A DNA stretch of 24,624 bases, from contig JADFJB010000064.1 of NCBI GenBank assembly GCA_022566355.1, forward strand, positions 1 to 24,624, given 5' to 3'. The first letter of the stretch is position 1. Each line of letters begins with the position of its first letter. This document shows, piece after piece, positions 3,472 to 15,699 of the stretch. The notes beneath the pieces were generated by a model. It was given only the letters and a program-made list of their open reading frames with translations. It had not been told where the DNA came from and searched no databases. Position numbers and translations under genes: made by a program. The DNA comes from a candidate division KSB1 bacterium. Lineage in GTDB: Bacteria > Zhuqueibacterota > JdFR-76 > DREG01.

Positions 3472-6400
3472 CTAGTTTGGATAAGGAAGCAAGCGATTGT
3501 TTAGCTCTTGAACGTTGGTCGTAAACTTCAAAATATCCTTTTTTAACTGGTTTTTTTCCAGATAACCAAGTCTTCTGGCAAGAAAATAAAATTCTTCGGT
3601 GTCAGTGGAAGGAACAGTCAAATCCCGTGTATTTCCGCGAACGACCCTGAGACTATCAATTAACAATCTAAGGGAAACCAGTGCATTTGTAAGCGTTTCC
3701 TCTTCTTGTTTCGTGATAATGCCAGTCTCATGTAGCTTTAATATTGCCTGACGTGTATTTTGTAACTTTAATTCTGGTTTTGCCTTGCCATGTGTAATTT
3801 GAAGGCCTTGAACCAGGTACTCCAAATCAACCAAACAACCCGGACTGAATTTCGCGTTCAAAGTCCCACCAGTTACCAATTGCCGGATTTGACGTTCCCG
3901 CATTGCACGCATAGAAATTACATCAAATGGCTCATCAGTATAAAGGATCTTGTCACGAAGCTCAACAATCCCTTTGCCAAAATTTGGGTCGCCAGCTATG
4001 GGGCGTAATTTAACTAGTGCTTGACGTTCGTAATTCCAGGCAGGTCCATCCGGATCAAAATATTTTTGGAACGCATCTTTTGTTACTGAAAATCGTCCTG
4101 CCTTGCCATAAGGCCGCATACGCATATCTATTTCAAATACACCTGCACGTTTGGCATGTATCGAATTTCTGACTTCATGAACCAATGCTTCAAAATATTC
4201 AGCATTTGTAATTGAATTTGGACCTATTGTTTTGCCTTTTCCTTCATAAATAAACATCAACTCTATATCCGATGCAAATCCCATTTCTCGCCCACCAAAT
4301 TTACCTAATGCGAATAACGTTATCGGGCTTCTTTTACTGCCAACTACCGGCATTCCATATTTCTCAACGAGGTGTTTTTCACAAAAGGCGAATGCAGTTT
4401 CAACGATTACTTCGGCAAGATCGGAAAGCTCTGCGGAAAATTGACCGAATTCGGTAATATATCCTTGAATGTGGCGCATATCGATGCGAAACATCTCACG
4501 GTCTTTAAATTCATTTAATTTCAGTACAGTCTCGCTTTCATCAGATATTTTGTTTAGAGCCATATTTAGTTCTTTTCTCAAATCCGCTTTTGATTTTACG
4601 GTAGAAAGGGCTTCTAAATCCTTAAGGACTGGAAACAAATTGTGATGCTGCAACCTGAGAAAATCAGTCCAAAGAAAATCACTCACGCCAAAAAGTTTTG
4701 CAAGTGCATCCATTACATCCGGTTTTTGGATAAAAACCAGCTCATTCATCCAATTACTCTGCTGAAAAAGTTGCTCGATGAATTCACGAAAATGCAATAA
4801 TGCAGATTCTGGGTTGGGTGCATTTGGCAACAAGCGAACAAAGTGTTTTACCAACGTAGTTGCGATTCGCAATTCCCGCTGTTTTGAGGGTTCTGTGATT
4901 TTTTGACCTTGTATATCAGTAACGAAAATGGTATCATGCAAACGATCTTCAATAGAGCTGATCATAACCCGCCAAATGAATATTCCATTCAAAGTTAGAG
5001 CGTTTGTTAATTCATATAAAAATCCGATTGTATCCGAAGCATCAATCCTTAGAATCGTATGATGTTCGGAGGCTGTATTATCAATATCAATTAATATCGG
5101 TTGCATTGAAGTTGTTACCTCTGTGGTTGTTTGACGTAGCGTGTTCGCAACACGCTTAGCCAATTCGCCTTGCACTTCCTTACTTTGTTTTGCGCGTATC
5201 TTACGCAAAAAATCCACAAGCTCGGTCTCATAGTTTTGCCAAATTTCTTCAGAAACATGTTTTTGAGTTTGAGTAATTCGAAACACATCTACAATTTTTC
5301 GCAGGGAACCTTTTTCCACATTAGAATGGGATATTCTCTTGCGTCTTCTTCGGCTACCCGGTTGTTTGGCGCCGGTCGAATCTACTGATTCATAGGTGAA
5401 AATTTGGCCGCTTTGTATATTGAATCCATAAATGAAGAGCAATCCACATATGACGGATAAAGCACCTAAATAATCATAACCGACAATGACGAGCTGCCAG
5501 GAATGATCCGTTAAAGAAGTTGCTTCAATTTTTGCCAATGTATTCTCATCGAGAAACTGAATTAGTTTTTCATGTTTTTCAATTTCCTCGTTTGAAAATA
5601 TTTCTCGGTAAGAAGCATTCATTCTGGAAACATGTTTACTTAAATCATTCTCAATCCCGTGAATATTAGAAGGTAACTGACCTAATCGAACCTGTTTAGG
5701 AATCTTGGAACCGCCAAGGTACTCTTCATAGATTTCTCGGATTGCTCTACTATGTTCCTGATAACGAGCCATGAAGTTTTTACCGGCATTTTTTCCCGAA
5801 AATGCAAGTCTATTGGCAAGATAAGTAATATCATCAGCTTTGGATGGAATAAGATGAGTTTGGCGATAATGCATCAATTGCAAATGGTGTTCAATAATAC
5901 GCAGAAAAGTATATCCGTCTGTTAAGATTCTAAATTGCTCTACTGGTAAGAGATCACATGCGCGCAAACGAGCCAAAGCATCAATAGTGTTGCGACTGCG
6001 TATTTCGGGTCGATTGGCACCATGAATAAGCTGGAGGTATTGCGTTAGAAATTCAATATCACGGATGGAACCTTCTCCATGCTTAACTTCCCGTTGGTTT
6101 TCACCTCGTATGCGCAAATTTGCTTCAACACTTTTTTTCATTAGGCTAACTTCAGCCCGCACATTATGATTGGCTACATCGAAAACCAAAGGTTGAATTC
6201 GATTCAAAAATTCTATGCCAACTCTTTCTTCGCCTGAAATAACCCTGGTTTTCAATAGAGCCTGTTTTTCCCATAACCGGGCCGTCGTTTCAATATATTT
6301 AAAATGATCCTCCAAAGATGAAATAAGAGGTCCATCACGGCCCCATGGGCGAAGACGCATGTCCACACGGTATAAAAATCCTTCACCGGTAGCTTTTGAA

Positions 6401-7206
6401 AGTGAATTGATTAAACTTTCACCAAGTTTGCGATAGGCTATTGGGATGGATTCAACGATAAACAACAAATCAATATCGGAACTGTAATTTAATTCTTGTC
6501 CCCCAAGTTTTCCCATTGCAAGAACAGCAAATCCTTGCGGATCGATTTGAGTTTTTTCAGCGGCGATCTCAAGACATGCACGTACCAAACTATCTGCAAG
6601 GTTAGAAATTTGCAAAGTAACCGTTTGAAAATCTAAAAGCCCCATTAAGTCACTGGCGCCAATGCGAAGCAATTCTTTCTTTTGATATTTTCTCAAATTA
6701 TCCAGTTTTTCAGATATGTGTTCGGTAAATTGAATTGACTTTATGGATTCGGCATAAAATTGATGAACGGTTTTAGTCTGGGCTAGCTGTTTACGATCTT
6801 TTAACTGTTCGAAATATTCGGGGTGTCGAAACAAAATTTCTGAAAGGAATTGGCTGCCGGCAAAAAGCGTAATTAAAATTTCTACCATACGAGGTTCGTG
6901 GTTCAGATACTGAAGCAAGGCCGACTTATCTGAAGCTCCATCCAGGAATTGTTCAAAATTGATTAATGTCTGATTGGGATTAGCTGCTTTGGAAATGACC
7001 TCCAAGAGAAATGGGTACAATTGATTAAGATTGGGAATCAACTCATCGGTTTCAGCCATTCGTAAAAGACTTCGATGGGCAGCCTGCCAATCTTTAAAGT
7101 TCAAACTTTGTAAAAAGTTAGAAATTTGTTCCGGGTTTAGCTGTTCCCGTAACAGAAGGTCTATTTTTTTATAATCTATTAAAGTGGTCACAAAAGGGTC
7201 CGACAA
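3472..7206 (-). CDS. glnE: Glutamine synthetase adenylyltransferase/deadenylase GlnE with inserted ACT domains
   Basis: Bifunctional enzyme that adds and removes AMP on glutamine synthetase. It is 1244 residues long against about 950 for the usual GlnE. The first half has a nucleotidyltransferase core ('GKLGGQELNYSSDIDLLFI', D244 and D246), then 'RLRPWGRDGPL' and a helical domain to about 500 with 'GEGSIRDIEFLTQ'. The second half has 'GKFGGREMGFASDIELMFI' (D980, but E982 where Asp is usual), 'MRMRPYGKAG' and 'LVDLEYLVQG'. Between them, about 505-800, is extra sequence. It has one ACT-like unit at about 568-650, with a basic loop 'SRRRRKR' at 618-624. A clearer ACT unit at about 715-790 ('DASDTIGFLYELTNALTLNG', 'DTIFVTDIQGQKIT') resembles the GlnD C-terminus. 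The start is TTG. It lies 171 nt downstream of glnA beyond a terminator, so it is probably transcribed separately or by read-through. The GlnE identity is firm; a sensing role for the ACT pair is inference. Confidence 0.95.
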   Translation of the reverse strand: MSDPFVTTLIDYKKIDLLLREQLNPEQISNFLQSLNFKDWQAAHRSLLRMAETDELIPNLNQLYPFLLEVISKAANPNQTLINFEQFLDGASDKSALLQYLNHEPRMVEILITLFAGSQFLSEILFRHPEYFEQLKDRKQLAQTKTVHQFYAESIKSIQFTEHISEKLDNLRKYQKKELLRIGASDLMGLLDFQTVTLQISNLADSLVRACLEIAAEKTQIDPQGFAVLAMGKLGGQELNYSSDIDLLFIVESIPIAYRKLGESLINSLSKATGEGFLYRVDMRLRPWGRDGPLISSLEDHFKYIETTARLWEKQALLKTRVISGEERVGIEFLNRIQPLVFDVANHNVRAEVSLMKKSVEANLRIRGENQREVKHGEGSIRDIEFLTQYLQLIHGANRPEIRSRNTIDALARLRACDLLPVEQFRILTDGYTFLRIIEHHLQLMHYRQTHLIPSKADDITYLANRLAFSGKNAGKNFMARYQEHSRAIREIYEEYLGGSKIPKQVRLGQLPSNIHGIENDLSKHVSRMNASYREIFSNEEIEKHEKLIQFLDENTLAKIEATSLTDHSWQLVIVGYDYLGALSVICGLLFIYGFNIQSGQIFTYESVDSTGAKQPGSRRRRKRISHSNVEKGSLRKIVDVFRITQTQKHVSEEIWQNYETELVDFLRKIRAKQSKEVQGELAKRVANTLRQTTTEVTTSMQPILIDIDNTASEHHTILRIDASDTIGFLYELTNALTLNGIFIWRVMISSIEDRLHDTIFVTDIQGQKITEPSKQRELRIATTLVKHFVRLLPNAPNPESALLHFREFIEQLFQQSNWMNELVFIQKPDVMDALAKLFGVSDFLWTDFLRLQHHNLFPVLKDLEALSTVKSKADLRKELNMALNKISDESETVLKLNEFKDREMFRIDMRHIQGYITEFGQFSAELSDLAEVIVETAFAFCEKHLVEKYGMPVVGSKRSPITLFALGKFGGREMGFASDIELMFIYEGKGKTIGPNSITNAEYFEALVHEVRNSIHAKRAGVFEIDMRMRPYGKAGRFSVTKDAFQKYFDPDGPAWNYERQALVKLRPIAGDPNFGKGIVELRDKILYTDEPFDVISMRAMRERQIRQLVTGGTLNAKFSPGCLVDLEYLVQGLQITHGKAKPELKLQNTRQAILKLHETGIITKQEEETLTNALVSLRLLIDSLRVVRGNTRDLTVPSTDTEEFYFLARRLGYLEKNQLKKDILKFTTNVQELNNRLLPYPN

Positions 7207-7377: not shown

Positions 7378-8796
7378 TTAAATATCGTAATACAAAGCGA
7401 ATTCATACGGATGTGGCCGCAACCGCATCGCATCCACTTCGTTTACTCTTTTGTAAGAGATCCATGTTTCAATTACATCACTGGTGAAAACATCACCCTT
7501 CAGAAGAAAATCATGATCTTTTTCCAAGCTTTCCAAAGCCTCATCCAATGAAGCAGGCGTGGATGGGATTTCTGCCAATTCTTCCGGAGCCAATTCATAA
7601 ATATCCTTATCCAACGGTTCACCAGGGTGGATCTTATTGGTAATGCCATCCAAACCGGCCATTAGCATGGCGCTAAAAGCTAAATAAGGATTACAAGATG
7701 GGTCCGGCCAACGGCATTCTACTCGTTTGGATTTTGGATTATCGGAATAAACTGGAATTCTGCATGCAGCGCTACGATTTCTCATTGAATACGCCAGGTT
7801 AACCGGGGCTTCATAACCGGGTACCAATCTCTTAAAAGAATTGGTTGTTGGATTGGTTATAGCGACAAGAGCCGGCGCATGTTTTAATAAACCACCCATA
7901 AAAAACATGGCTATTTCACTGAGGCCTGCATAACCGGAACCGGCGAATAGCGGAGTTCCTTCTTTCCACAAACTTATGTGGGTATGCATCCCGCTACCAT
8001 TATCACCAAAAAGCGGTTTCGGCATGAAAGTAGCGGTTTTACCATGCTTCCGTGCAGTATTTTTGACAATGTATTTAAACAACAGCATCCCATCAGCCAT
8101 ACTTACCAAAGGCCCATACTTCAAATCGATTTCTGCCTGTCCACCTGTGGCAACTTCATGATGGTGGCATTCCACATCCAGCCCGCTCTCGATCATGGTT
8201 AGTATCATTTCACTACGAATATCATGAAACGCATCGCTAGGCGGAACTGGAAAATATCCTTCTTTGTAGCGTGGTTTATAGCCAAGATTTGGATTTTCCT
8301 CTTTTCCTGAATTCCAACGGCCTTCCACGGAATCAATAAAATAATAGCTAGAATTGGCGGTTTGGTCAAACCGAATATCGTCAAAAATGAAGAATTCTGC
8401 TTCCGGGCCTAAGTAAGCTATATCTGCTATACCTGTAGATTTCAAAAATGCTTCAGCTTTTTGGGCAATATTACGCGGGCACCGGGTGTATTTTTCTTTA
8501 GTTAGAGGGTCATGGACATCACAAACCAAACTTAAAGTCGTTGGCTGCATGAATGGATCTATAATAGCAGTGTTTGGATCTGGAATGACAATCATGTCAC
8601 TTTCATTGACCGCCTGCCAACCCCGGATACTGGAACCGTCAAACCCGAATCCTTCGGTAAATAAATCATCTGTTAATGTGGAAATGGGAGCAGAAAAGTG
8701 CTGCCATAAACCCGGGAAATCCATAAACTTTAAGTCTAGAATTTTTGCATCCTTATCTTTAGCCATTTGCAGGACATCCGCAATAGATTTAGCCAT
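7378..8796 (-). CDS. glnA: Type I glutamine synthetase, adenylylatable (GSI-beta-like)
   Basis: Makes glutamine from glutamate, ammonia and ATP as a cytoplasmic dodecamer. The 472-residue length is normal for type I. Visible motifs are '[10 protein letters not shown]' (51-60), metal ligands E132 and E134 in '[10 protein letters not shown]', E214 and E222 in '[14 protein letters not shown]', H271 in '[11 protein letters not shown]', '[12 protein letters not shown]' with R323, and R362 in 'VECRWPDPS'. Y400 in '[16 protein letters not shown]' matches the context of the tyrosine that GlnE modifies in E. coli (NLYDLPPEE). The start is well fixed by 'aggaggt' 7 nt before the ATG. A near-consensus sigma-54 promoter lies upstream and a strong terminator follows, so it is a monocistronic, nitrogen-regulated unit. 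The adjacent glnE supports regulation by adenylylation. Confidence 0.98.
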
Positions 8797-9107
8797 GTTC
8801 TTACCTCCTGTAAATTTTAATGTTTATTAATTGATAAATGGTTAAGTGGTTAACAGTTTATTATCTTATATCTCCAAATAAATTTAAATTGAGTAAAAAT
8901 GCAAATTGTATGCCATCCACAACCCAAAATAAATTTCTTAGTTTAGATCTGGTTATATGTATTTTAAAATCAATAAGTTAAAATTTTCTATGATCGATTT
9001 TCATATTAAACTTTGGAAATATTTTATGCCTTAAATACAACAGGTTGCACAAAATCGGGCAGAGGTGTTCAGAAAATGACCAGCTTTAAAAAAATTAGAA
9101 CAAACTG
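8797..9107 (-). promoter_or_regulatory. glnA upstream region (leader, promoter, possible activator-binding stretch)
   Basis: These 311 bases hold no gene. The part next to glnA carries the Shine-Dalgarno 'aggaggt' (about 8804-8810). About 93 nt of AT-rich leader then reach the predicted transcription start near 8889, with the sigma-54 promoter behind it. Further upstream (8916-9107) is where an NtrC-type activator would bind. I saw only a loose 'ttgcac'/'gaggtg' pair near 9046-9067, too weak to call a site. No riboswitch fold was recognised. Confidence 0.55.
8900..8915 (-). promoter_or_regulatory. Sigma-54 (RpoN) promoter of glnA
   Basis: The minus strand reads TGGCATACAATTTGCA. The consensus is TGGCAC-N5-TTGCA. 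The GG (-24) and GC (-12) doublets are present at exactly the right spacing, and only the sixth base differs. It sits 104-119 nt before the glnA start codon, giving a leader of about 93 nt. Sigma-54 promoters drive glnA in many bacteria and need an NtrC-like activator. No such intact activator is in this window. Confidence 0.82.
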
Positions 9108-9206
9108 CTATGATATTGGAGAATTGTTCTGAGATTGCAGATGATATTTTTTCATTCGGCTCCGTAATGTATTGCGATGAATACCAAGCATTTTAGTAGC
9201 TTTATT
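9108..9206 (-). pseudogene. Orphan Fis/NtrC-type C-terminal helix-turn-helix fragment
   Basis: Thirty-two codons ending in TAG encode 'KATKMLGIHRNTLRSRMKKY' and a short tail. This is the hallmark recognition helix of the Fis-type HTH at the C-terminus of NtrC-family sigma-54 activators (family pattern 'AA..LGI.RNTLR.K...Y'). The frame is closed by TAA at 9207-9209, and the only internal ATG lies inside the HTH, so it cannot be a working gene. It overlaps the last bases of the amidohydrolase gene in another frame. It is best read as the broken-off end of a former activator gene, tantalisingly next to the sigma-54 promoter of glnA. Homology is judged by motif only. Confidence 0.65.
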
Positions 9207-10023
9207 TTAACCAGGCGCCATATAATTCCGGTCTCCGATCAATTAAGAAATGTTTTTTTGCATGGGAATTAGGGATTTCATTAAGGTCAATCTCAGCATA
9301 CAGAATGGCATCGTCTGAATCGGGAGCTTGTGCAATAATCCTTCCATCTGGCGCTGTAACAAAAGACTTTCCCTCGAACTCAATGCAATCTTCCTTTCCA
9401 ACACGATTACAAAGTGCAGTAAAATAGCCATTTTGAAAACCTGCAACCTGAAGTTCAGATTCAAACAACCCAGGAGGCCATTCGCCTACGGAACCTGCCT
9501 GGGGGATAACGACTAATTCTGCTCCCTGTAAAGCCAAGGACCGCATATACTCAGGATAATGTCGATCATAACAAATGGCTATTCCGACTTTACCGATAGT
9601 TGTTTCAAATACCTGAGTGCCATGATTCCCTGGTGTATAATATCCTCCTTCATGAAAACAAGGCGCTTCAATTATGTGAACCATACGTGTCGTACCAAGT
9701 ATGGATCCATCAGAATTAATCATCGGCGAAGAGTCAAAAGTCTCATTGCCATAGCGTTCGAATAGATTTAAAACAATAACAATACTAAACTCCTTAGCCA
9801 ATTGGGAAAATATATCTGTTGTTCTTCCAGGAATGGTTTCAGCGAGTTTCGTCACATCTCCGGAAGCCGGAGTTTGGGGATAAAATCTAGAAAAGGCCAA
9901 TTCTGCAAATGCGATAAGTTGAGCCCCTTCATTTGCGGCTTTCTTAGTTGAAGCCACTGCGCGATTTATATTTTCATCAATATCCAAAGAAGCATACTGT
10001 TGAATTAAAGCTAATTTGGTCAT
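9202..10023 (-). CDS. Nitrilase-superfamily carbon-nitrogen hydrolase with Met at the usual catalytic Lys
   Basis: A cytoplasmic amidase/carbamoylase-type protein of the nitrilase superfamily, closest in feel to N-carbamoylputrescine amidase-like proteins. I chose the ATG at 10021-10023 ('MTKLALIQQYASL'), where the conserved fold begins and 'agga' precedes; a TTG at 10050 would add nine residues of low plausibility. Numbering from the TTG, the catalytic Glu is E50 ('AFAELAF') and the nucleophile is C160 ('AICYDRHYPEYM'). A second conserved Glu is E134 ('FHEGGYYTPG'). The residue that aligns with the catalytic Lys ('YRK.H' in the family) is M123 in 'TTRMVHI'. This may be a trait of a subfamily rather than a mutation. 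The substrate is unknown. It is a stand-alone gene whose end overlaps the HTH remnant. Confidence 0.9.
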   Translation of the reverse strand: MTKLALIQQYASLDIDENINRAVASTKKAANEGAQLIAFAELAFSRFYPQTPASGDVTKLAETIPGRTTDIFSQLAKEFSIVIVLNLFERYGNETFDSSPMINSDGSILGTTRMVHIIEAPCFHEGGYYTPGNHGTQVFETTIGKVGIAICYDRHYPEYMRSLALQGAELVVIPQAGSVGEWPPGLFESELQVAGFQNGYFTALCNRVGKEDCIEFEGKSFVTAPDGRIIAQAPDSDDAILYAEIDLNEIPNSHAKKHFLIDRRPELYGAWLK

Positions 10024-10253
10024 CTTTTTAATCCTATTAACTTCTTCCAAATATATATCATCAAATTACAATTATTTAAATATGGGACAAATTAATGGAA
10101 TTTGCAATCACCAATTATCCTTAAAAAGGATTCATAAACTAACCCAAGTTCTCAAAAATAAATTCAACAAAATCGTTTATGAATTTTGAAAAATGTAGTA
10201 CTACTAAGTTATAATAATGGCATAATGAGTTATATTAAATTGAAAATAAATAT

Positions 10254-13660: not shown

Positions 13661-14440
13661 TTATTTCGACTTAATGGCTTGTTCAATCATTTCGTACAAT
13701 TTCTTTTCATCCAAATTTCTATGCAGTTGACCATCCATAGCCACTGAGATTTTACGTGTTTCTTCGGAAACAATAATGATCACAGCATCAGATTCTTCGG
13801 CCAAACCTACAGCTGCCCGATGTCTTGTGCCTAACCAAGGTTCTAATTTTGTCGATTCAGATAAAGGTAAAATACATTTGGCAGCTTCTATTAATTCATT
13901 TTGAATTATCAAAGCGCCATCATGCAAAGGAGATAACGGGTTAAAAAGTGATACGATCAGAGGTGATGATATTTCCGCTTGAATTGGTTGTCCTGTTTCG
14001 ATCACCCGGCGCAATCCGGAATTTCTGGCAAGCACAATTATGGCGCCAAAACCGCGATTCGAAAGCTCTAAACTGGCTTTGATAATCTCGTCAATTGCAA
14101 GTCCACTACGAACAAGTACAAATTTTCGAATCAAGGGTATTTGACCAATATTGAGTAAAAGCCTGCGCAATTCGGGCTGGAAAACAATAACAAATGCTAT
14201 CAGCCAAATTGTTTGTAAGTTATTAAATATCCATACCATACCGTTTAAGTTGAATAAATTCACAAGAGCCGACATCAGAAGAATGATTAGTAAACCTACA
14301 GCCATTTGCAAAGCGCGGGTCCCGCGTAAAAACTGGTATAATCGATACAGGATAAACGCAATTAACAATACATCCAACACGTCTATTAACGTGACTTTTA
14401 GAAAGCCAACTTGAAACAAGGTGATGTTTATTTTACTCAT
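13661..14440 (-). CDS. cdaA: Membrane diadenylate cyclase CdaA (c-di-AMP synthase)
   Basis: Makes cyclic di-AMP from two ATP. The 259-residue length fits CdaA/DacA. Three transmembrane helices occupy roughly 17-36, 44-63 and 67-87, followed by a linker helix and the DAC domain (about 110-245). The signature residues are present: D174-G-A in 'SPLHDGALII' and R206-H-R in 'LGTRHRAAVGLAEESDA'. In Firmicutes cdaA sits with cdaR and glmM; here it follows folP by 83 nt, a pairing seen in other non-Firmicute bacteria as I recall. No cdaR-like regulator is present. c-di-AMP usually controls potassium and osmotic balance and the cell wall, so the adjoining envelope cluster may be relevant, though this is not shown. 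Confidence 0.96.
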   Translation of the reverse strand: MSKINITLFQVGFLKVTLIDVLDVLLIAFILYRLYQFLRGTRALQMAVGLLIILLMSALVNLFNLNGMVWIFNNLQTIWLIAFVIVFQPELRRLLLNIGQIPLIRKFVLVRSGLAIDEIIKASLELSNRGFGAIIVLARNSGLRRVIETGQPIQAEISSPLIVSLFNPLSPLHDGALIIQNELIEAAKCILPLSESTKLEPWLGTRHRAAVGLAEESDAVIIIVSEETRKISVAMDGQLHRNLDEKKLYEMIEQAIKSK

Positions 14441-14492: not shown

Positions 14493-14566
14493 ATTCAGCC
14501 GCTAAGACTCAAAGGCTCCAAGTTCATAGTTTTATCTTTTGAGTCGTAGAGGCTTCGAGGCTGAAT
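14493..14566. repeat. Nested palindrome overlapping the folP 3' end
   Basis: Two nested perfect 8-bp inverted repeats: attcagcc (14493-14500) with ggctgaat (14559-14566), and gactcaaa (14506-14513) with tttgagtc (14538-14545). The right half forms the last codons of folP and the left half lies in the gap before cdaA. It could act as a hairpin between the two genes or be a mobile palindromic repeat that has replaced the end of folP. There is no clean T-run, so it is not a classical terminator. Confidence 0.6.
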
Positions 14567-15699
14567 AGATTCTTTCTTTCTAAAAATAAATCGGCAACAA
14601 GAGCGGCTTTCTTGGTTTCTTTTACATCATGAACCCGCACAATATGAGCGCCATTCTTCACCGCCATCACATGGGACACCAGGGAACCCTCCAATTCCCC
14701 CCCCCGATCCATTGATAGAGCTTTGTTCAAAAAAGATTTTCGCGAAGCTCCAACTAATATTGGAGCGTTCAATACCTGTAATTCTTGCAAGCGGTTAATC
14801 AAGTCATAATTATCAAACCATTGTTTGCCAAAACCAATTCCGGGATCCAAAACGATCTGATCAGAATTAACACCCATTTCCATTGCTTTATTCTTGCTAT
14901 TATTCAAAAAAAGAAGGATTTCCTCCATTAAATTATCGTACGATGGATTCCGTTGCATATCCCTGGGTGTACCCTTAATATGCATTAAAATCAATCCAGC
15001 GCCATCTGAAGCCAATTTTGCAATTTCAGGATCATTGCCTAAGCCGCTAATATCATTGAGGATTTCCGCCCCGGCTTCAATAGCCAATTTTGCTACTTTG
15101 ACTTTTTGGGTATCAATTGAAATTGGGACACCGCTTTGTTTTCTAATCGATTCAATCACAGGGATTACACGACTTATCTCTTCTTGTTCTGATACCGGTA
15201 AAGCACCCGGCCTAGTGGATTCACCACCAACATCTATAATATCAGCTCCATCTTCCACCATTTGCAAGGCATGCTCTACAGCTTTTGCGGTTTGGATATA
15301 TTTTCCCCCATCGAAAAAAGAATCGGGGGTTATGTTTAAAATTCCCATTATATGCGTTCGCTCATGCAATTGTAAAGAGCGTCCTTTAATCTTCCACACC
15401 AATTCAGTTTGATTTTCAAAGTTTCCCAATACTTCAGCAATTTCATTTGAAATGAATACAAGGCCCTGTTGAGCTGACATTTCAACTGTTAAATTGGCAT
15501 ATTCGGAGTGTAATCCTGTCAAAAAGAGTTCGGAATCCAAACTCTTGAAGGAAAATTTGTTCCTCAACAAAATCTCTTTTAGTTTTTTTTGTTTTTCAGG
15601 AATCAGATTCGCGAGCTTTAAACAAATTATTTGATCACCCGGTAATCCATGGATGGAATGATTTGATAGAATCCGAACATGTGATGGTAATGCTGTCAA
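14524..15699 (-). CDS. folP: Dihydropteroate synthase with about 110-residue N-terminal extension
   Basis: Condenses hydroxymethyl-dihydropterin pyrophosphate with p-aminobenzoate to give dihydropteroate in folate synthesis. The standard TIM-barrel enzyme occupies about 113-375. Its motifs are 'GILNITPDSFFDGG' (119-132), 'GGESTRPGA' (158-166), 'SIDTQKVKVA' (194-203), 'NDISGL' (215-220), 'LMHIKGTPRDMQ', 'DPGIGFGK' (285-292), 'VGASRKSF' and 'VRVHDV' (354-359). Residues 1-110 are extra relative to the usual 270-280-residue enzyme and match nothing I recognise. The TTG start overlaps the TGA stop of the TPR gene by 4 nt (15696-15699), which argues that the extension is really translated and coupled. 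The last dozen codons are formed by a palindromic repeat. Confidence 0.95.
   Translation of the reverse strand: MTALPSHVRILSNHSIHGLPGDQIICLKLANLIPEKQKKLKEILLRNKFSFKSLDSELFLTGLHSEYANLTVEMSAQQGLVFISNEIAEVLGNFENQTELVWKIKGRSLQLHERTHIMGILNITPDSFFDGGKYIQTAKAVEHALQMVEDGADIIDVGGESTRPGALPVSEQEEISRVIPVIESIRKQSGVPISIDTQKVKVAKLAIEAGAEILNDISGLGNDPEIAKLASDGAGLILMHIKGTPRDMQRNPSYDNLMEEILLFLNNSKNKAMEMGVNSDQIVLDPGIGFGKQWFDNYDLINRLQELQVLNAPILVGASRKSFLNKALSMDRGGELEGSLVSHVMAVKNGAHIVRVHDVKETKKAALVADLFLERKNLFSLEASTTQKIKL

Follow-up and report, generated by a model that had tools for sequence, protein, structure and literature searches.

The glnE gene of a candidate division KSB1 bacterium, located on a stretch of 24,624 nucleotides (contig JADFJB010000064.1; hereafter, the window), encodes an adenylyltransferase with an insert between its two catalytic halves, and the homology of this insert to the tandem ACT tail of GlnD was confirmed by protein family models and profile searches. 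The protein is a GlnE variant assembled from known parts, and the fused form occurs as an established architecture in several phyla. As the best explanation, we consider it probable that the adenylyltransferase senses glutamine directly via the GlnD-type ACT pair of its C-terminal half (C-half) and acts on the glutamine synthetase GlnA.

In the textbook cascade, GlnD senses glutamine and informs GlnE via PII, and adenylylation by GlnE controls glutamine synthetase. Glutamine sensing by GlnD is attributed to its ACT domains (PMC3173338), and in E. coli GlnE, adenylylation is carried out by the C-half and deadenylylation by the N-terminal half (N-half) (PMC12409994). A GlnE with an ACT domain was not found to be described in the literature searched, with subscription journals and preprints lying outside the scope of the search; the architecture may already be visible in domain databases.

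Gene and Domain Organisation of glnE

The coordinates of glnE, its domains and the neighbouring glnA are compiled in Table 1. Pfam analysis identified the product of the single open frame as a GlnE, with two matches each to PF03710 (329 bits, cut-off 24) and to PF08335 (GlnD_UR_UTase-like). The protein stayed below the cut-off of every NCBIfam GlnE equivalog (576.7 of 625, 474.4 of 487 and 450.6 of 724 bits), which fits its divergence and its insert.

Table 1. Coordinates of glnE, its domains and motifs, and the adjacent glnA in the window.
Feature	Position	Strand	Basis and remarks
glnE with internal tandem ACT pair	3472..7206	-	1244 aa, TTG start; homologues 1230-1244 aa
N-terminal half, residues 1-500	5707..7206	-	PF03710 at 110-335, PF08335 at 370-495, motifs
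Pre-ACT linker, residues 519-557	5536..5652	-	TIGR01693 alignment begins here; alignment with GlnD
ACT1, about residues 558-671	5194..5535	-	GlnD models, AlphaFold
Basic loop inside ACT1 hairpin, residues 606-637	5296..5391	-	pLDDT under 50
ACT2, about residues 702-795	4822..5103	-	PF24931 at 706-780, GlnD models, AlphaFold
C-terminal half, residues 790-1244	3475..4839	-	PF03710 at 3976-4707, PF08335 at 3487-3864
C-half catalytic motif D980-I-E982	4261..4269	-	D-x-E, characteristic of the ACT-linked clade
glnA, type I glutamine synthetase	7378..8796	-	directly upstream of glnE, same strand
Tyr400 of GlnA	7597..7599	-	expected adenylylation site

The N-half consists of a deadenylylase-type nucleotidyltransferase and a helical domain, with D244-I-D246 and D282 present. 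The C-half consists of an adenylylating-type nucleotidyltransferase and a helical domain with a fold like that of 3K7D/1V4A, and carries D1027 in addition to D980 and E982, the latter two being found in 59/59 ACT-linked C-halves aligned. The catalytic carboxylates are intact in both halves, with Glu replacing Asp in the C-half as a variant.

The halves are separated by about 230-260 extra residues (approximately residues 519-785). The inter-half region comprises about 264 residues, compared with about 38 in L191, a standard GlnE from the same order, and the gap between the PF03710 matches amounts to about 1,495 bp in the window versus 829 bp in L191.

Homology of the Insert to the GlnD Tail

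The GlnD model TIGR01693 aligned residues 519-780 of the protein to model positions 617-842 of 850, corresponding to both GlnD ACT domains, and a search with the insert by itself returned the two GlnD models NF003467 (3.3e-19) and TIGR01693 (7e-17). The insert profile, in turn, matched both ACT domains of same-order GlnDs with E values of 1.6e-28 and 7.4e-32. Linker, ACT1 and ACT2 follow each other in the order of a GlnD-type tandem, the linker resembling the GlnD stretch preceding ACT1 (Y..xF...EI..H). ACT2 was called by Pfam as ACT_ACR9_3rd (PF24931) with 30.3 bits (cut-off 27), and the generic Pfam ACT family scored under its cut-off on GlnE. ACT1 alone obtained no Pfam call; its assignment comes from the predicted fold together with the GlnD models and the GlnD alignment. 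Outside the shared nucleotidyltransferase/catalytic part, no match to the GlnD tail was obtained with E. coli GlnE and the same-order standard GlnE as controls, which rules out an ordinary GlnE linker merely resembling ACT.

The β1-α1 loop of ACT1 contains D578 and G581, and that of ACT2 contains D725, T726 and G728. D578/G581 and D725/G728 are invariant in seven proteins of the own phylum, and D578 (59/59), D725 and T726 are invariant across 59 relatives; in the split forms of the enzyme described below, the β1-α1 glycine is S or A. The loop within the ACT1 hairpin (RRRRKR) is basic and probably disordered, its length being 9-45 residues and its median net charge +5 in the 59 relatives, and it was not present in the GlnDs aligned.

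AlphaFold modelling of residues 497-830 (7 sequences) revealed two ACT folds at a pLDDT of 75, and that of residues 497-1244 (59 sequences) attained a pLDDT of 87 and a pTM of 0.82. The ACT-type units were placed at about residues 569-671 and 717-795, and in the model, the last ACT2 helix runs almost directly into the C-half. In Foldseek, the C-half matched the E. coli GlnE domains 1V4A and 3K7D alike, with neither favoured, and the insert matched ACT-like domains, the best being the ACT region of the large glutamate dehydrogenase of M. smegmatis. Despite this best fold match, the large glutamate dehydrogenase was rejected as the origin of the insert, since the sequence models name GlnD and the insert profile matched no sequence in the PDB.

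A long GlnE with an extra block between its halves, two ACT units within this block and their likeness to the C-terminal ACT domains of GlnD had been proposed in a first-pass annotation of the window. The block was found as described, with good domain limits and coordinates; the two units are seen in the AlphaFold folds, the Pfam call for ACT2 and the GlnD models, and the likeness extends to an aligned GlnD model tail with both domains in order. None of the outcomes named there as speaking against the proposal (no ACT match, a linker common to GlnE, a full glnD in the genome together with an ACT pair binding no ligand) occurred.

Distribution of Fused and Split Forms

Searching 82 genomes of the own phylum revealed a full-length fused GlnE in seven, including the genome of the window, and one more that is cut by a contig end (G078); four genomes of the own order had a standard GlnE. 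The full-length homologues are 47-50% identical and originate from independent assemblies. A scan of genome contigs with the insert profile yielded 121 related loci, 80 of which were kept.

The fused N-ACT-ACT-C form (loci within L069-L116, a few of them cut by contig ends) was present in Chloroflexota and KSB1/Calditrichaeota as well as in single MAGs of Spirochaetales, Planctomycetales and Thermoanaerobaculia. Among Anaerolineae, of which an even draw of 121 genomes was analysed, GlnE was found in 32; all 25 proteins that were intact in one frame were long (1153-1387 aa), with standard length in 0/25. The first-pass annotation had not counted the architecture among the standard ones, but it is not confined to this genome.

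A split form, in which ACT-ACT-C is a protein of about 770 aa (L117-L148), was found in Nitrospirota, Latescibacterota, Glassbacteria, Gemmatimonadales and one Acidobacteria-labelled MAG. In Nitrospirota, an N-half gene (about 575 aa) lies divergently transcribed beside the ACT-ACT-C-half gene, an arrangement that is also shown by a chromosome record (CP092081.1, L140), and in Latescibacterota, the N-half is encoded elsewhere in the genome. GlnE-family searches of two Glassbacteria MAGs and one Gemmatimonadales MAG (L132, L141, L142; G122, G128, G129) returned no N-half. A type-I glnA adjoins the ACT-ACT-C-half gene in L132 and L141.

The fused gene could, in principle, be an assembly chimera or a frame or fusion artefact, or its insert an ordinary linker mimicking ACT. 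The sub-cut-off score of the generic Pfam ACT family is the one observation found in favour of this explanation; given the single open frame, the recurrence of this architecture in numerous independent genomes with full-length homologues, the more than 100 related loci and the controls without an insert, its chance of being correct is practically nil.

Evolution of the Halves and of the ACT Pair

In a tree of the halves, the ACT-linked C-halves formed one clade (100/100), inside which the fused C-halves were again a clade (100/97), and the fused N-halves likewise grouped together (100/100). In this unrooted tree, a branch with modest support (64/88) had all C-halves on one side, the standard as well as the ACT-linked ones. 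D-x-E occurred in every ACT-linked C-half of the 59-sequence alignment, and D-x-D in the sampled N-halves and in those standard C-halves with a readable motif. In a tree of ACT domains, the pairs from GlnE grouped in one clade (100/100) apart from the sampled GlnDs; this tree had no outgroup and contained three GlnD rows with very long branches.

The simplest reading of these data would be that a GlnD-type tail became attached once to an adenylylating half. Evolutionarily, the ACT pair can be assigned to the C-terminal (adenylylating) half, because the split forms carry the pair on the C-half alone.

Control of the N-half by the ACT pair, with glutamine stopping deadenylylation and adenylylation being constitutive, would be conceivable from the fused chain, where the pair comes after the N-half helical domain, and from GlnD, whose ACT tail controls both of its activities. 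The split forms, however, carry the pair on the C-half protein and have a separate N-half without it, the Glassbacteria and Gemmatimonadales MAGs are without a detected N-half, and the ACT2 helix enters the C-half directly in the model, so that we regard control of the N-half as quite improbable.

GlnD and PII in Genomes with ACT-Linked GlnE

In the genome of the window, which is 98.5% complete, neither PII (PF00543) nor a full GlnD was found at the sensitivity used, leaving the bicyclic GlnD-PII-GlnE cascade without these two members. The only GlnD_UR_UTase matches fall inside glnE, and searches with PF03710 and GlnD likewise found glnE alone. The full-length GlnD model covers the window GlnE in parts only, and no HD family was among the Pfam matches to this protein up to E = 10. 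The missing glnB and glnD, which the first-pass annotation had noted for the window, thus hold for the whole assembly at this sensitivity. Its suggestion that the roles of GlnD and GlnE are merged had to be abandoned, as the uridylyltransferase and the HD (uridylyl-removing) parts are absent and the sensor tail only is present.

A family-mate (G002) and two order-mates (G005 and G006) possess an ordinary GlnE together with full GlnD and PII, and G003 (72% complete) contains a GlnE piece and GlnD. In the two order-mates, the full-length glnD is convergent beside the standard glnE (L191 and L192).

Partner counts, which derive mostly from draft genomes and are uncorrected for relatedness, gave GlnD in 0/7 and a PII match in 2/7 of the fused-GlnE genomes of the own phylum, with no clear PII in 5/7. 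Fused-GlnE genomes elsewhere (31, accessed via named loci) had a full or near-full GlnD in three cases and a clear PII (over 60 bits) in seven, with none clear in 24. Absence of glnD from genomes with a long, ACT-bearing GlnE is common but not obligatory, as 3/31 keep GlnD. Genomes with the split form had a clear PII in 18/19 and GlnD in at least 9/19, and Nitrospira mostly retains both. In Anaerolineae, GlnD was found in 0/121 genomes, and a clear PII in 5/32 of those that have GlnE versus 13/89 of those that lack it. In this group, PII frequency is independent of GlnE, which gives no support to the idea that the ACT pair strictly replaces PII there. We conclude that the fused enzyme is usually without GlnD and often without PII, and that the ACT pair is no strict substitute.

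The same counts bear on the explanation that the ACT pair adds to PII control, with GlnE combining its own glutamine reading and a PII signal, and that seemingly PII-less genomes have a divergent PII or an assembly gap. It would be in line with the PII and GlnD content of the split-form genomes, with the full GlnD retained in three fused-GlnE MAGs and with the PII matches in two fused genomes of the own phylum. Against this stand the lack of a clear PII in most fused genomes, both elsewhere and in the own phylum, and the uniform lack of GlnD in Anaerolineae; these absences are too consistent for assembly gaps, and we consider the explanation doubtful, albeit with a real chance of being right.

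Genomic Context of glnE

The product of the adjacent glnA is likely the substrate of GlnE. The Tyr400 motif is present in this GlnA, and relatives have it in their adjacent type-I GlnA as well; in the relatives L078, L085 and L088, a glnA that is 79-82% identical adjoins the fused gene. A carbon-nitrogen hydrolase gene (9202-10050, -) sits immediately upstream of glnA in the same orientation and may be connected with glutamine metabolism. A σ54 promoter upstream of glnA was considered and rejected: the σ54-like element TGGCATACAATTTGCA, about 100 bases upstream of the gene, is a near-match (8900-8915, -), for which 0.78 occurrences are expected by chance in the window, and it was not found consistently in relatives. 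Elsewhere in the window, a c-di-AMP cyclase gene of the CdaA type (13661-14440, -) lies beside a dihydropteroate-synthase-like gene (14524-15699), and an integrase-core (rve) transposase-like gene (37-1053, -) is situated near the contig end. No tRNA and no Rfam families were found in the window.

Proposed Mechanism

According to the reading that we favour, abundant glutamine would bind to the ACT pair, and the signal would travel through the ACT2-to-C-half helix, favouring adenylylation, whereupon the neighbouring GlnA, adenylylated at Tyr400, would be turned down. Upon falling glutamine, the N-half would strip AMP from GlnA. GlnD and PII would be dispensable for such control in the genome of the window. 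The sequence relationship with GlnD points to glutamine as the ligand; the direction in which it shifts the activity and the dispensability of any other regulator are likewise inferred. Weighing against this reading are the GlnD and/or PII kept by Nitrospira and by three fused-GlnE MAGs, the independence of PII from GlnE in Anaerolineae, and the S or A at the β1-α1 glycine position of the split forms. The tie of the ACT pair to the C-half in both architectures, together with the three genomes without a detected N-half, suggests that glutamine promotes adenylylation.

E. coli GlnE responds to glutamine although it is without ACT domains, and the pair may, for this reason, do something else. It could sense another small molecule or mainly dimerise, with glutamine acting via the catalytic halves as in ACT-less GlnE. 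ACT domains bind many ligands, the basic loop of the ACT1 hairpin was not seen in the GlnDs aligned, and structurally the insert comes closest to the ACT region of a glutamate dehydrogenase, all of which would agree with such a function. We nevertheless judge it unlikely, since the nearest sequence models are GlnD tails with both domains in order, the Asp residues of the ligand loops are invariant, and the target enzyme produces glutamine.

Direct glutamine sensing by GlnE can be extended to a one-protein nitrogen switch, where the relay from glutamine via GlnD and PII to GlnE would have collapsed into a glutamine-gated adenylyltransferase across phyla; its minimal form would be an ACT-ACT-adenylyltransferase half without a deadenylylating half, as in Glassbacteria and Gemmatimonadales. 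We regard the chances for and against this extension as evenly balanced. One protein may then sense and switch where three are usually needed.

A widespread GlnE carrying the GlnD sensor would allow for a direct test of the contribution of PII, and the fused GlnE would reveal which GlnE half the sensor acts on. A sensor-bearing GlnE would also explain the control of nitrogen assimilation in lineages without GlnD or PII. For these groups, a PII cascade inferred from glnE alone would be a misleading annotation.

Comparison with Known Systems

Plant ACR proteins of the ACR11/ACR9 type, the group from which PF24931 stems, share GlnD-like ACT repeats with the window protein; unlike the latter, they are plant proteins with no catalytic domain attached. 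The large glutamate dehydrogenase of M. smegmatis (L-GDH180) provides the best fold match of the insert and likewise has ACT-like domains on an enzyme of nitrogen metabolism, but it is a different enzyme, and the insert profile gave no sequence match in a search of the PDB.

With GlnD, the window protein shares a homologous tail of linker, ACT1 and ACT2 in the same order. It differs from GlnD in having catalytic halves of the GlnE type, without an HD domain or a uridylyltransferase call, and its ACT pair falls in a GlnE clade that is separate from the sampled GlnDs. E. coli GlnE (1V4A, 3K7D) is alike in its two nucleotidyltransferase halves with helical domains, the carboxylates in both halves and the glnA product as substrate; it differs in lacking an inter-half ACT pair, and the C-half of the window protein belongs to a separate D-x-E clade. 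The split GlnE of Nitrospirota and Latescibacterota has its ACT-ACT-C-half in that same D-x-E clade, and differs from the fused form in being encoded by two genes, in the replacement of the β1-α1 glycines by S/A and in its occurrence in genomes that mostly contain GlnD and/or PII.
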